From contig CAJWVO010000002.1 in assembly GCA_913048465.1 (NCBI GenBank), forward strand, positions 1-64,000: a stretch of 64,000 bases of DNA, in the 5' to 3' direction. A model generated the notes under the pieces. It was given only the letters and a program-made list of their open reading frames with translations, had not been told where the DNA came from and made no database searches. Source of the DNA: an uncultured Nitrosomonadales bacterium. GTDB lineage: Bacteria; Pseudomonadota; Gammaproteobacteria; Burkholderiales; Methylophilaceae. Below are positions 48,953 through 56,349 of the stretch, in pieces. How positions within the stretch are numbered: position 1 is the first letter of the stretch; the number at the start of each line of letters is the position of its first letter. A program made the position numbers and the translations under genes.

Positions 48953-51151
48953 CTAGAAAGAATACTCAATAGATGTGAAGATTGACCTTCCCATACCTGG
49001 GACATTTACAGCATTGGCGTATGTAAGCCCCATGCCAGTAGTGTTCATGGTTTTCCCCTGGCCCATGTAAACACCGCCTAGAGGATGATCATAATCTCGA
49101 TCAAATAAGTTATAAATACCCAGATTCAGTTGCAGATTTTCTTTTTGGTACGTGGACTTCAAGTCAACTAATGCATAGCCACTAGTTTCCATCTCCTGTC
49201 GGATATCATTAACATTCTTCTTGCTATCCACCAATTGGATATGAAGTCCGTTATTCCAATGATTAATCTTTTGGCTAAAGATCAATTTTAGATTGGTTGG
49301 CATCACATGATAGAGGTCATCATTCGCAAGGGTATTAACTCCTTTGACATGACTGAGTTTGGAATCAAAATAAAAATCCCCAAGCTTAGCAATATTGCCT
49401 AAATATTGGGAGGCCTTCACATCAAATCCCCATAGACGTGCATTTTGATTACCAAGGGTAAGTGTTCGAAATCCATCTGCCCTAGAAGTATAGGATACTG
49501 CATCAATATAGTCATCAATATAAGTAAAGTAAGGCTTAAAATGAACATTCCATAATTGTTTGCCAACATCATGGAATACGGCGGCGTAGGCAAAGGTATG
49601 TGCTGTTTCTTTATCCAAATTCACATCACCCACATATCCATTCCCATCCCCAAACCAGTTCGCCATGGAAGCTGCCATAGCACTGTTAGACCAAAGGTAC
49701 CTTTCTTGCAAGGTTGGTGATCTATTCTTGATAGAGTAGCCAAACTCGTGGGTTTGATTCAGATTAGGAGAATAGGCAGCTGATAAGGATAAATCAAGAT
49801 GAGTATCATCTTTTTTGTGATTGAGCGCATTAAAGCTATTTGCATCTGCAGCATAACCCATGTTGTTATACCCTTGTACGTCGTTGGTATCCATCTCAAT
49901 CCGGGTGAGTCTGATCCCCGACTGGGTAAACCACTCTTTTGACCATTGGTGGTCTAATTCTGTAAAGATGCTATATCTATCTCGCTTACCGTCGTTAATA
50001 TTTTTCATAACGTTTGGTGACATCATGCCTCCAGTGGGATCCCAGCTATCATCCACCTCATAAAACTGAGTTTCTAATCCGGATCGAAGTGTACTTTTGT
50101 CATTCAGATAAATATCCGATACTGCATTAAACCCAGTGGTGAAACCGTGGTGCGTCATGGACATGCCTGGTGTTCCAGAATAATTAAAGTTCTTATTTTT
50201 TCCAAAATTCATTTTGGTTTCTACCTGATGGTGATAGGCCTGAAGCTCCAGTTTCCCCCAAGCAAAAGAAATTGTGTCTTTAAGTTGAATCTTATGGGTG
50301 TGTTGGCCAACAACATCCATCCGCTGATTCATAAAACCTTGGTATGGCATAGACTGATAATCAAATTTAATTTCAAGTAAATGATTGTCTAACTGGTAGC
50401 CATAACTCAACTGATGATTCTCCATTCGATAACCACTAGAGGCGATTTCATCATCTCGAATTCCGCCTTTATCCGATGTTCCACCGTAATTGGATCCTTT
50501 AAAATTATTTGCGCTGGAATAATTATTGGACTGGGAATAACTTCCAGAATATTTGAAATATGCGTTACCAGAGGCAACAGAAGATTTGAAATGAACCCCT
50601 TGATCGTCATTGTTACTTTTGTAAAAACTTTTAATGTTGGTCGAATAAATTAATTGATCGTTCTGGCTAAAGGTAGGCTTCTTTGTCTTTATTTTTATAC
50701 TGCCGGCAATGCTGTCGCCCCCCATACTCACTGGTGTGATTCCTGCAAATACTTTAATGAAATCAACATCATTGATATCAATAAAGGATAGATCGGTGTC
50801 GGTATGAGAGGTGCACGCAGAATTGAGGTCCACACCATCAACGCTGATCCTTATTCTGTCATCATTCAACCCCTGCATATAAGGTATCGAGGACACTGAT
50901 CCATTTGCGGCATTATCAATCCCCGTAAAATACTCTAAAAGTGACGAGGTGTCCTGCTTGAATTGGTGATTAAGTTTCGATGAACTGATACTCTCACCCG
51001 AGGTTATCTCACCCGGGGTCACAACATCGGTGATGACATAAATATCTCTCAAACTTAAACCCTCGTTTGGATAAGTAGGGATGTAATCATTTGCATTTGA
51101 AACTGTATTTTGAGCAATTAATAAAAAAGAAATGAGAAAAAATTTTTTCAT
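48953..51151 (-). CDS. TonB-dependent outer-membrane receptor, OprC/NosA-like (putative copper) type
   Basis: Plug: MQGLNDDRIRISVDGVDLNSACTSHTDTDLSFIDINDVDFIKVFAGITPVSMGGDSIAGSI; C-term YNLFDRDYDHPLGG...IFTSIEYSF; Met/His-rich segments. Confidence 0.82.
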   Translation of the reverse strand: MKKFFLISFLLIAQNTVSNANDYIPTYPNEGLSLRDIYVITDVVTPGEITSGESISSSKLNHQFKQDTSSLLEYFTGIDNAANGSVSSIPYMQGLNDDRIRISVDGVDLNSACTSHTDTDLSFIDINDVDFIKVFAGITPVSMGGDSIAGSIKIKTKKPTFSQNDQLIYSTNIKSFYKSNNDDQGVHFKSSVASGNAYFKYSGSYSQSNNYSSANNFKGSNYGGTSDKGGIRDDEIASSGYRMENHQLSYGYQLDNHLLEIKFDYQSMPYQGFMNQRMDVVGQHTHKIQLKDTISFAWGKLELQAYHHQVETKMNFGKNKNFNYSGTPGMSMTHHGFTTGFNAVSDIYLNDKSTLRSGLETQFYEVDDSWDPTGGMMSPNVMKNINDGKRDRYSIFTELDHQWSKEWFTQSGIRLTRIEMDTNDVQGYNNMGYAADANSFNALNHKKDDTHLDLSLSAAYSPNLNQTHEFGYSIKNRSPTLQERYLWSNSAMAASMANWFGDGNGYVGDVNLDKETAHTFAYAAVFHDVGKQLWNVHFKPYFTYIDDYIDAVSYTSRADGFRTLTLGNQNARLWGFDVKASQYLGNIAKLGDFYFDSKLSHVKGVNTLANDDLYHVMPTNLKLIFSQKINHWNNGLHIQLVDSKKNVNDIRQEMETSGYALVDLKSTYQKENLQLNLGIYNLFDRDYDHPLGGVYMGQGKTMNTTGMGLTYANAVNVPGMGRSIFTSIEYSF

Positions 51152-51178
51152 GTAAGTAATATATTATTATTTGGGTAG

Positions 51179-51221
51179 ATTATAAGTTAAAGATCACAGC
51201 ATATGTGCGACATATCGTCGC
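51179..51221 (-). promoter_or_regulatory. Putative RegA-type box (51207-51221) plus TATAAT -10 (51179-51184) for the TonB receptor gene
   Basis: GCGAC-atatc-GTCGC palindrome; minus-strand TATAAT; poor -35; box centre about -42 of the implied start site. Confidence 0.55.
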
Positions 51222-51231
51222 GCCAGGTGAT

Positions 51232-51762
51232 TTATGATTTGACTGGTTTTTTTTGTAACTTTCTTTGCAAGGTTCTTCTATGCATATTTAATGCTTTTGC
51301 AGTTAAGGTGATATTAAAATTATTTTCTTTTAGAATCCTTTGGATATGCTCCCATTCAACCCTCTTTGCTGATGGAAGTTTAACATCTGGAATACTTTTG
51401 CTCAGTTTTTTAACTAAATTAAAGGAAGATAAAATTTCATCAGTAAGAACTGGTTTAATTAAATAGTCATCTGCGCCGAGCTTCATCGCTTCAACGGCGG
51501 TTGCAACACTTGAATAGGCTGTTAAGATAATTATCCGAGCTTTTATTGTGCTGTCACATATCTCTTTAATTAATTGTAGGCCATTTCCATCTGGAAGATT
51601 AAGGTCAATTAAATAATAATTTGTTGAGTTATTCTTGGAAATCTTTTTTCTCGCATCAGATATAGATTCAGATTCAATAATCTTGTCAAAGTAGTTAACT
51701 AAATTTATCTTTAAACTTGATCGAAATAATTTATCGTCATCTAAAATGAGGAGATTTTTCAT
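51232..51762 (-). CDS. regA: Response regulator, RegA/PrrA/ActR family (receiver + Fis-type HTH)
   Basis: LLILDDDKLFRSSL, YLIDLNLPDGNGLQLI, GADDYLIKP, C-term LKENNFNITLTAKALNMHRRTLQRKLQKKPV. Confidence 0.9.
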   Translation of the reverse strand: MKNLLILDDDKLFRSSLKINLVNYFDKIIESESISDARKKISKNNSTNYYLIDLNLPDGNGLQLIKEICDSTIKARIIILTAYSSVATAVEAMKLGADDYLIKPVLTDEILSSFNLVKKLSKSIPDVKLPSAKRVEWEHIQRILKENNFNITLTAKALNMHRRTLQRKLQKKPVKS

Positions 51763-52973
51763 TTTCTATAAATTACTGATTTTTGTGGTAAAAAAACTTT
51801 AACAACATTTGTGTTATTCACATAATGAATATCTATTGAACCTTCATATCGCTCAATAATAATTTTACTTAAATACAAACCCATTCCCATGCCAAAGTCT
51901 TTTTTTGATTTTGGCTTATCGTCAAGTATATTTTTTTTAAATTTTTTTCCATCATTTTGTATTTCAAGTACAAGGTTTTGATTATCAAAAAACAAACTGA
52001 CTTTTACCATGCTTTTGGAGTCATGGATGGCATTGTCAATAATATGTATTATTGAATGAAAAAGCATATCGTCGTATTTGATTTTTACATTTTGTTTGGA
52101 TTCGTAGTTGAAATTTATTTTTATCCTATTCATAGACTGTGAATAAAAATCACTAAGCATTTTGACGAAATATGATAATTGAATATTTTTTTTGGACTTT
52201 GAAAAATTATAATTATTGATTGATTTTATAATGTCTTTGCATTTGAATAATTGTGACTTTATGACTTCAAGTGCATCCTTTGCTTTTTCTGAAGTAATCA
52301 TCCTACTCAACTCTTCATACTTCATTGCAATTGTTGCCATAGGTGTGCCTAATTGATGTGCAGTAGTTGCAGCAAATGAGGTCATATGAATGTTCTTATC
52401 TTTCTTTAAAAGTAATTCTTTTGCCTTTGAAAACTCCTCATCGCTCTCTCTATTAAGTTGCATGATCCAAAAAAAATACCAGACAATAAGAGATGTAATT
52501 ATCAAATAGGCTATTAAAACTCCCCATAAATTTAGATTTCCTGAAAATCCTCCAAAATAATTCATTGATAAATGAGATATCGGTTGAGTATAAAAGCATA
52601 CTAAAGAAAATGTAATAATTGATTCTATTGAATAAATAATTAAATATTTTTTATATAAGGTTAATGCTGCCGATACCATCGGAATTAGCATTAAAAAAAT
52701 TAAAGGATTTTTATAACCACCAGCAAAGAAAAAAAATAATCCAATCCAAATTAAATCAATATTTGCTTGATAGAAAAGATATATATTTTTAATTTGACTA
52801 GGTTTTTTAAATATAAAGTTCAAATTGATCAAGCCTGAAATAAATAAAAGGAAAAATAAAAGGGAATATGGAATGGGGTAGCTGTAAGTATTCATTAATA
52901 TCAGAATAACTGCAAAAAAAGATATTAAAAAAAATCTACCAAATAAAACAACTTTTAAAATTTTATCCAGCAT
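51759..52973 (-). CDS. regB: Redox sensor histidine kinase, RegB/PrrB/ActS family
   Basis: TM domain with GGYKNPL (RegB GGxxNPF-type motif), H-box HQLGTPMATI, conserved-type Cys in SQLFKCKDIIKSI, overlaps regA start by 4 bp. Confidence 0.87.
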   Translation of the reverse strand: MLDKILKVVLFGRFFLISFFAVILILMNTYSYPIPYSLLFFLLFISGLINLNFIFKKPSQIKNIYLFYQANIDLIWIGLFFFFAGGYKNPLIFLMLIPMVSAALTLYKKYLIIYSIESIITFSLVCFYTQPISHLSMNYFGGFSGNLNLWGVLIAYLIITSLIVWYFFWIMQLNRESDEEFSKAKELLLKKDKNIHMTSFAATTAHQLGTPMATIAMKYEELSRMITSEKAKDALEVIKSQLFKCKDIIKSINNYNFSKSKKNIQLSYFVKMLSDFYSQSMNRIKINFNYESKQNVKIKYDDMLFHSIIHIIDNAIHDSKSMVKVSLFFDNQNLVLEIQNDGKKFKKNILDDKPKSKKDFGMGMGLYLSKIIIERYEGSIDIHYVNNTNVVKVFLPQKSVIYRK

Positions 52974-53133
52974 AATTTAAGCTAATCTCAGTTGTGATGC
53001 CCAAGTCTAGAATTGGAAATTTTTTTGTCAATGTTTGCCTGCCAGGTAAGCGTGCGAGTGACTGTTTTTCTATTGGCTTATTATTTGATTGAGTTTTTTT
53101 TATTTTTTCCTCAAACAGTTTATTAAATGTCAT
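52963..53133 (-). pseudogene. 56-aa ORF resembling the truncated N-terminus of a sulfite-oxidase-like molybdopterin oxidoreductase (not in ORF track)
   Basis: Read from minus strand: [56 protein letters not shown]; start overlaps the lspA stop (ATGA), stop lies inside regB. Confidence 0.6.
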
Positions 53134-53585
53134 TTAATTTTTCCTTTTAATAAGCCTAAAAGATATATGATTGCTCCAGTGGTAATGACCGAATCAGCGA
53201 CATTAAATGCTGGCCAGTAATAATCATTTATATGCAGATAGATAAAGTCCGTCACATGCCCGTTTGAAAATCTATCAATTAAATTTCCAATAGCGCCGCT
53301 AATAATTAACATGATTGATATCGACCCATATGCACTTGAGATATTTTGTCTATATAAATAAATTAAGTAGATTAGGATAGCTAGGGATAAAAGAATAAAA
53401 AAATTGTTTTGCCAACCAGATGCGCTATCTAAAAAACTAAATGCAGCACCCGTATTTTGAAAATGAACAATCTTAAAAAAATTATTTATTTCCAAATATT
53501 CAGTGAAAGGAATATTTTTTTCAACCCAATTCTTGGAGAGCTGATCAATAAGTATGATGCATAAGCCTAAAAGAAACTTACACAT
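53130..53585 (-). CDS. lspA: Lipoprotein signal peptidase (start likely [11 protein letters not shown]; tracked ORF over-extended into ileS)
   Basis: [55 protein letters not shown]. Confidence 0.95.
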
Positions 53586-56349
53586 ACCTTCTTTTTTCTC
53601 CATCTCCAAAAAGATTTGTAATACAACGTTCACAGATGGAAGGATGCTCATCATGATTGCCCACAGAAGATTCAAAATGCCAACATCTGTCACATTTGTC
53701 ATGATTAATTTTTTTAACACTGACAGAGAGTCCTTGTTGCTCTTCAATCAAACTCACGCTTGATACAATAAAGATATAGTGGAGTTCTGATTCATAAGGT
53801 TTTAAAATTTGAAAAGTTTCTGACTTACATGACAGCTGAATATCACACTCCAAAGCAGAACCTACTAACCCTTTCTCTCTTTCAGCCTCAATACTCTTAT
53901 TCACTATTGGTCTGATATCTTCAATCTCACGCAAAAATTGAAGCTCTGTTTGATTCAAAGAGGAAGGCATAAATTCGTACCATGATTCCTTAAAAATATT
54001 TTGATCATTAGTTATCGTCTGCCATAATTCCTCAGCGGTAAAGCTTAAGATAGGTGCAATCATTCGTGTTAAAGCATGAGTGATGTGATATAAGGCAGTT
54101 TGTGCTGAGCGTCTTTCCAGAGATTTCTCTGGCATGGTGTAAAGTCGATCTTTAATGATATCTAAATAAAATCCTCCCATGTCCTCAGAACAAAAACTGA
54201 CTAATTTTTTTGTTAGATGGTGAAAGTCATAGCTTTCATAAAGCTGAACTATTTCTTTTTGGAGAACTTCAGTTTTCATAAGCGCATATTTATCCAACAA
54301 TAATAAATTGGGTTCTTCTAACATCATAGATGATGCATCAAAATCAGATATATTTGCACATAGAAATCTTAGTGTATTTCTGAGCCTTCGATAACCATCA
54401 GCCGATCTCTTGATGATCTCATCAGAAATATTTAATTCTCCAGAGAAGTCAGTCATTGCCACCCAGAACCTCAGAATATCCGCTCCATACTGGTCCATTA
54501 TTTTTTGTGGGGCAATCACATTCCCTTTAGACTTACTCATTTTTTTCCCTTGACCATCCACTACAAAACCATGAGTTAGCAATGCTTTATAAGGCGCCTG
54601 TCCAGAAATAGCTGAGGCAGTTAGTAAACTGGATTGGAACCAGCCTCGATGCTGATCTGATCCTTCAAGATAGAGATCGGCAGGGTAATTTAAATTATCA
54701 TTTGTTTTTAACACTGATTCATGAGTGGTCCCAGAGTCGAACCACACATCTAAGGTGTCCATCACTTTTTTATAATATTTTGCATCATCACCAAGATATT
54801 CATTAATATCCAAATCAAACCACGCATCAATACCATGCTCTTCAATCAATAGAGCAATTTTTTCAAAAAACTCGGCAGTCTTAGGATGTGGCTCATCTGT
54901 TTCTAAGTGGGTGAAAATAGTGATGGGTACTCCCCAATTTCTTTGCCGTGATATACACCAATCTGGTCTATTTTTCATCATTCCCTCAAGGCGTGCTTTT
55001 CCCCATGATGGAATAAATTCTGTTTGTTCAACCTGCTCTTTGGCAATATCTCTTAAAGTCTTTTGACCAAGTGATAAATTCATGCCGATAAACCACTGTT
55101 GTGTGGCTCTAAATATAATTGGGGTTTTATGACGCCAACAATGCGGGTAACTATGTTCAAACGATTTTTTAAAAATAAGCGCATCATTCTTTATTAACAG
55201 ATCGATAATTTCAGAATTAGCTTTCCATATATTTTTTCCTGCAAAGAACTCCACATTGCTCTTAAAGCTGCCCTCTTCATTGACTGGATTTTCTACAGGC
55301 AGGTTATATTTCATGCCAACAACATAATCGTCTAAGCCATGCGCTGGAGCAGTATGCACCAATCCTGTTCCATCTTCAATTGTCACATGGTCGCCCAATA
55401 TAATTGGAATATTCTTTTCGATATAGAAAGGGTGATTGAATAAAAAGTTTTCTAGCTCCTGACCAAGGATGGAATTTATTTTCTTGGCTGTTTGACCGGT
55501 TCTTGCAGCAAATTTATCAACAAGCTCATCTGCAATAACTAACAATTTTTCTTCTAGCTCAACAAGAACATACTTTAGTTTTGGATTAACTGAAATTGCC
55601 TCATTGGCTGGTAATGTCCAAGGTGTGGTTGTCCATATCACAGCGTAAATGTCTTTTTCAAGCTTTGACGAGTTAAATAATTGATGCAAGCCCCTTTGAT
55701 CAACCCCTTTGAACGCCACATCAATTGATATTGAGGTTTTATTTTCATAATCAACCTCAGCTTCAGCGAGTGCGGATCCGCAATCAAGACACCAATGCAC
55801 AGGCTTGTTACCTTGATACAGCATATTATTCTGGTAGATTTTTCCAAGTGAGCGAACAATGTCCGCTTCTGTTTTTTTATTTAATGTTAGGTATGGGTTA
55901 TCCCAGTCTCCCAACACGCCTAACCTAATAAAATCATTTTTTTGATTAGCCACTTGCAGGTTTGCATAATCCCTGCACAATTGCCGAAACTTCTTTGAAT
56001 CAAGGTTCTTGCCATGCTCTTTTTCGATAGCTAACTCAATTGGAAGGCCATGACAATCCCAGCCAGGGATATAGGGAGCATCGTAATCTGACAATCCTCT
56101 AGATTTAACAATAATATCTTTTAATACTTTGTTAACCGCATGGCCAATATGAATATTCCCATTGGCATATGGTGGGCCATCATGAAGGATAAATTTAGGT
56201 TTTCCTTTTTTTACATCCCTAATTTGTTGATAGTATTTTTTTTCCGTCCATGAAGATACCCAACCGGGCTCACGCTGAGCCAAATTACCCCTCATAGGAA
56301 ATTCTGTATCCGGTAGATTTAAGCTATATTTTTTATTGTCATTACTCAT
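53578..56349 (-). CDS. ileS: Isoleucyl-tRNA synthetase
   Basis: [36 protein letters not shown]-terminal CDRCWHFE...CERC zinc motif. Confidence 0.98.

Follow-up and report, generated by a model that had tools for sequence, protein, structure and literature searches.

The palindrome between regA and a TonB-dependent receptor gene in this uncultured member of the Methylophilaceae (genome G000) is very probably the operator of the RegB/RegA-like system encoded upstream, from which RegA, centered at about −42, would activate the OprC-like receptor gene. The evidence consists of the box itself, its conserved position in the promoter, its dependence on RegA across genomes and its uniqueness in G000. 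In the proposed mechanism, a RegA dimer would bind GCGAC-N5-GTCGC, stand in for the missing −35 element and recruit RNA polymerase to the receptor promoter at its TATAAT (class II activation), while RegB would set the activity of RegA from the quinone pool or the redox state. The receptor, which most likely imports copper as OprC does, would then be made when the respiratory oxidases need metal.

The palindrome (GCGACATATCGTCGC) occupies the 80-nt gap between the two genes, where the sequence-only reading had placed it, and is the only match to GCGNC-N5-GNCGC in the window, that is, in the whole 64,000-nucleotide stretch analyzed; 100 dinucleotide shuffles contain none. In pattern scans of the G000 genome (1.2 Mb, 88% complete) it is the sole perfect GCGAC-N5-GTCGC, and the genome-wide scan for GCGNC-N5-GNCGC that the sequence-only reading had proposed returned one further match, GCGCCTCTCTGCCGC, within coding sequence. 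Hand comparison with the consensus strings quoted in PMC5506826 gives agreement at 14 of 15 positions with the RegR box GNGRCRTTNNGNCGC, on either strand, exactly as the sequence-only reading had given it, and at 15 of 15 with the R. capsulatus RegA consensus SSGNVRDNHYSNCSS, which bears out the suggested fit to a RegA/PrrA-type site. The other promoter features described earlier also hold: the minus-strand TATAAT lies 22 nt from the end of the box, which puts the box center at about −42, and the view that a regA terminator is unlikely agrees with a search of the gap that found no intrinsic terminator and no T-tract. The gap also contains a weak competing promoter match (TTAACT at 51190 and AATAAT at 51163, 9/12).

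Table 1. Coordinates of the genes and promoter elements around the palindrome in the window
Feature	Position	Strand	Remarks
TonB-dependent receptor, 732 aa, OprC-like, proposed target	48953..51151	-	Pfam Plug
regA-receptor intergenic region, 80 nt	51152..51231	-	contains box, -10 and leader
Putative -10 (TATAAT) of the receptor promoter	51179..51184	-	22 nt from box; implied start ~51172
RegA-type box (putative)	51207..51221	-	GCGACGATATGTCGC on the minus strand, the receptor sense
RegA/PrrA/ActR-like response regulator, 176 aa	51232..51762	-	receiver and Fis-type HTH
RegB/PrrB/ActS-like sensor kinase, 404 aa	51759..52973	-	NF033792, 162.6 bits (cut-off 350)

Both proteins of the two-component system are divergent members of their families that fall under the NCBIfam equivalog cut-offs. 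The regulator carries Response_reg (4.4e-20) and HTH_8 (4.2e-10) Pfam domains, and its best NCBIfam model is ActR/PrrA/RegA (NF033791), with 147.8 bits against a cut-off of 250; it is therefore called RegA-like. Five RegA homologues from the family likewise stay under this cut-off (154–210 bits). The phospho-acceptor D53 and the recognition helix NMHRRTLQRKL are invariant among seven family sequences. In the kinase, the quinone motif GGXXNPF reads GGYKNPL, with a final L for F that also occurs in some relatives, and the H-box histidine H206 (HQLGTP) and C245 are invariant. We take C245 to be the equivalent of Cys265, the redox cysteine of RegB/PrrB/ActS kinases.

Among the TonB-dependent copper receptors OprC and NosA, OprC of Pseudomonas aeruginosa is the closest solved structure and the only PDB relative of the G000 receptor (E 2.5e-10 alone, 3.5e-28 by profile). 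The two share the plug cysteine (C113, at the position of OprC Cys143), but the OprC copper site CxxxM-HxM is altered in G000: the C-x3-M of OprC is C-x3-T, with Thr at the Met147 position, and the HxM region failed to align. A conserved GMxM motif may substitute for HxM, this region being unaligned. CxxxM itself is kept in most family receptors (CANHM) and in G056 (CGNHM), a regBA-bearing genome of the same genus. The G000 receptor scores below the NCBIfam TonB-copper cut-off. It is thus OprC-like rather than OprC proper, and its ligand is probably copper. CrtA of Bordetella, from the same broad bacterial class, is likewise a TonB receptor, a copper importer tied to respiratory oxidases (PMC12914433). 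However, CrtA belongs to a different receptor cluster and is controlled by the CruR upstream ORF, and RegA is unmentioned in PMC12914433. At three loci from other genera (L040, L034 and L038), regBA adjoins a PepSY_TM protein and what appears to be the end of a TonB receptor, an arrangement that recalls the Bordetella CrtA-CrpH copper operon (PMC12914433).

Within the genus, a close regA is present in 2 of 31 genomes, G000 and G056. Footprinting against relatives, as proposed at the outset, favors the box: G056 has the order regB-regA-box-TATAAT-receptor, with GCGACAATTTGTCGC 23 nt before TATAAT, and retains the box in place and spacing despite a receptor with just 49% identity to that of G000 and divergence elsewhere in the gap. 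Four sister species (G015, G034, G046 and G065) encode a receptor 92–96% identical to that of G000 at the same site, between lspA and clpB, and have neither regBA nor a box upstream of the receptor. The interval between lspA and the receptor is empty in G065 and holds a molybdopterin oxidoreductase gene in the other three; this junction is variable in the genus, with regBA, the molybdopterin oxidoreductase gene or nothing (window positions 51152–53747; L054–L058). Since the box and regBA are physically linked in these species, they could have been lost jointly for trivial reasons, and the motif was therefore learned elsewhere, from the regB promoters of the family. Single GCGAC-N5-GTCGC sites recur in nine regA-less members of the genus (G080, G104, G109, G124, G129, G132, G138, G141 and G147), with spacers such as CTAAA or TTTAA in common.

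The family compared is the Methylophilaceae, of which 187 genomes were pattern-searched. A de novo dyad count on the regions upstream of regB in 49 RegA-bearing genomes ranks TGCGACA-N3-TGTCGCA at the top, in 20 regions against a shuffle maximum of 5; the reversed-sequence control of this count just mirrors the motif and is uninformative. An arm spacing of 5 nt occurs 64 times and any other spacing at most 13 times, and a second spacing peak, at 20 nt, is due to tandem boxes upstream of regB. A weight matrix was trained on the regB boxes only, with G000, G056, G033 and G045 left out, and applied to 70 receptor genes, over 450 nt of upstream sequence each. The learned motif is GYGRCA-N3-TGYCRC, and scores on the receptor upstream regions are bimodal. 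The G000 box scores 22.4 (p 0.005, the floor of 200 shuffles) and differs from the consensus of the family in a single central nucleotide.

The box tracks RegA across the family. It precedes 31 of the 36 receptor genes in RegA-bearing genomes vs 1 of 34 in genomes lacking RegA (Fisher 1.5e-13, a value inflated by kinship). The one box-bearing genome without RegA, G073, is an 85% complete MAG whose nearest neighbor in the receptor tree, G014, has RegA. Two of the five RegA-associated genes missed by the 450-nt scan, those of G001 and G035, have a box farther upstream, with a cytochrome c gene between box and receptor in G001. For about 21 of the 31 receptors with a box, regA is on a different contig or more than 15 kb away, so linkage is not the cause of the pattern. 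RegA changes about ten times on the receptor tree; of nine independent pairs, about five are concordant between box and RegA, none is discordant and four show no difference in the box (p 0.0625, an underpowered comparison). A scan of named genomes found more distant RegA relatives only.

Promoter geometry is conserved. Of the 32 receptor promoters with a box, 30 have a −10 element (at least 5/6) that follows it by 22–24 nt; 3-nt windows at other offsets contain a mean of 0.7 matches and never more than 4. The −35 matches of these promoters reach 1–4 of 6 positions. An ATTC-like stretch usually comes just after the box, although not in G000. The combined pattern box-N22..24-TANAAT is found in 49 of the 187 family genomes (reversed control, one hit), and 32 of the 33 RegA-typed genomes that have it are RegA-bearing (Fisher 2e-17). 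The earlier prediction that RegA directly controls the receptor thus gains support from the co-occurrence of box and RegA and from the fixed 22–24 nt geometry; for activation as the sign of that control, the argument is the geometry.

The identical architecture also occurs before regB, other TonB receptors, cytochrome c, cydA and an unannotated family of proteins with Cys motifs, and the predicted targets form a believable respiratory and metal regulon. The unannotated proteins, of about 320 aa, are found repeatedly behind a RegA-type promoter (L192:1583-2542, L199 and L200:1583-2542) and carry the N-terminal Cys motifs CGGAFCTxNTNWD or CSSCGCTLNSDW; the two members scanned, those of L192 and L200, have no Pfam or NCBIfam match. 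They are possibly metal-related envelope proteins. Counts of perfect palindromes were dropped as evidence for a regulon, the 12–15 GCGAC-N5-GTCGC matches in each of G096, G102, G122 and G131 being misleading. These copies (L083–L098) have mostly GC-rich or TTTTA-type spacers, often stand in pairs about 32 nt apart and resemble a family of repeats with no relation to RegA. Nothing was found in a scan of viral contigs.

The reach of the system appears much narrower in the two regBA-bearing genomes of the genus. The remaining near-matches in G000 and G056 are either inside genes or have no −10 at the proper distance, and neither genome has a box before regB. Two-component systems are reported to be greatly reduced in pelagic Methylophilaceae (PMC6794327). 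RegBA has apparently been kept in these genomes as a dedicated switch for the adjoining receptor, a normally global regulator cut to one local target.

The main rival to activation, which we consider unlikely, is a repressor operator, in which RegA over the −35 region would block RNA polymerase and inactive RegA would allow the receptor to be made. RegA-type regulators repress as well as activate, and the box adjoins the −35 region or overlaps with it. However, these promoters have no usable −35 and should be weak without RegA, the distance from box to −10 is fixed as for polymerase contact, and the promoter has also changed in species that lost RegA, which simple derepression does not need. 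The box could instead be bound by another transcription factor with the same distribution as RegA, correlation alone being unable to name the protein. We rate this as improbable, given that the motif comes from regB promoters and matches the published RegA and RegR consensus strings, that the recognition helix of RegA is invariant and that the sole promoter box of both G000 and G056 adjoins regA.

A function of the inverted repeat as RNA, namely a hairpin at the 3′ end of regA that terminates, protects or processes the transcript, is very improbable. Although a 5-bp GC stem could form 10 nt past the regA stop (minimum free energy −12.2 kcal/mol, z −1.7), conservation concerns the sequence and not pairing alone, and in about 21 relatives the element precedes receptors unlinked to regA, upstream of the −10. 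The terminator and hairpin readings were rejected: there is no terminator call and no T-tract, and in these relatives the element lies outside the receptor transcript. Chance, finally, has a negligible probability. With 155 inverted repeats of the 5-N5-5 type in the window and an expectation of 0.11 in the gap, an arbitrary repeat would be unremarkable, and the weight is carried by the GC-rich identity and the conservation of the box. Exact arms, by contrast, have an expectation of about 4e-6 in the gap (zero-order), G056 keeps place and spacing despite diverged flanks, and the family-wide pattern contradicts a chance origin.

The preferred reading, activation of the receptor gene by RegA, both resembles and departs from known systems. 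RegSR of Bradyrhizobium, whose RegR belongs to the same regulator family, recognizes the 15-bp box compared above (PMC5506826). Promoters bound by RegR often have two putative sites, variable half-site spacing and imperfect arms (PMC4064962), whereas G000 has one box with perfect arms, a fixed 5-nt spacer and a fixed distance to the −10; and whereas RegSR is global, RegBA of G000 apparently has one target. RegB/RegA of Rhodobacter capsulatus and PrrB/PrrA of R. sphaeroides likewise combine a kinase bearing His and Cys, and a quinone motif that has a variant form in G000, with a Fis-type HTH regulator. However, these systems govern global photosynthesis and respiration regulons through degenerate sites, and the G000 proteins are divergent. 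Copper binding and a disulfide link at Cys156 have been described for R. capsulatus RegA (PMC9147068). The literature searched contained no earlier report of a RegA-controlled copper receptor.

Published descriptions of RegA/PrrA/RegR sites present them as degenerate and unlike from one species to another (PMC5506826). In the Methylophilaceae, the motif is sharp and the promoter geometry fixed, which makes direct RegA targets predictable. A broader scenario, which we see as evenly poised, is that in streamlined Methylophilaceae a global RegBA became a one-promoter switch for a copper receptor, with the box lost together with regBA, and that across the family RegA would couple respiratory redox state to metal import through one fixed geometry. 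Redox sensing would then be tied to the import of a metal, probably copper, which terminal oxidases use, and the streamlined genomes would offer a one-regulator, one-target version of the system for clean testing.
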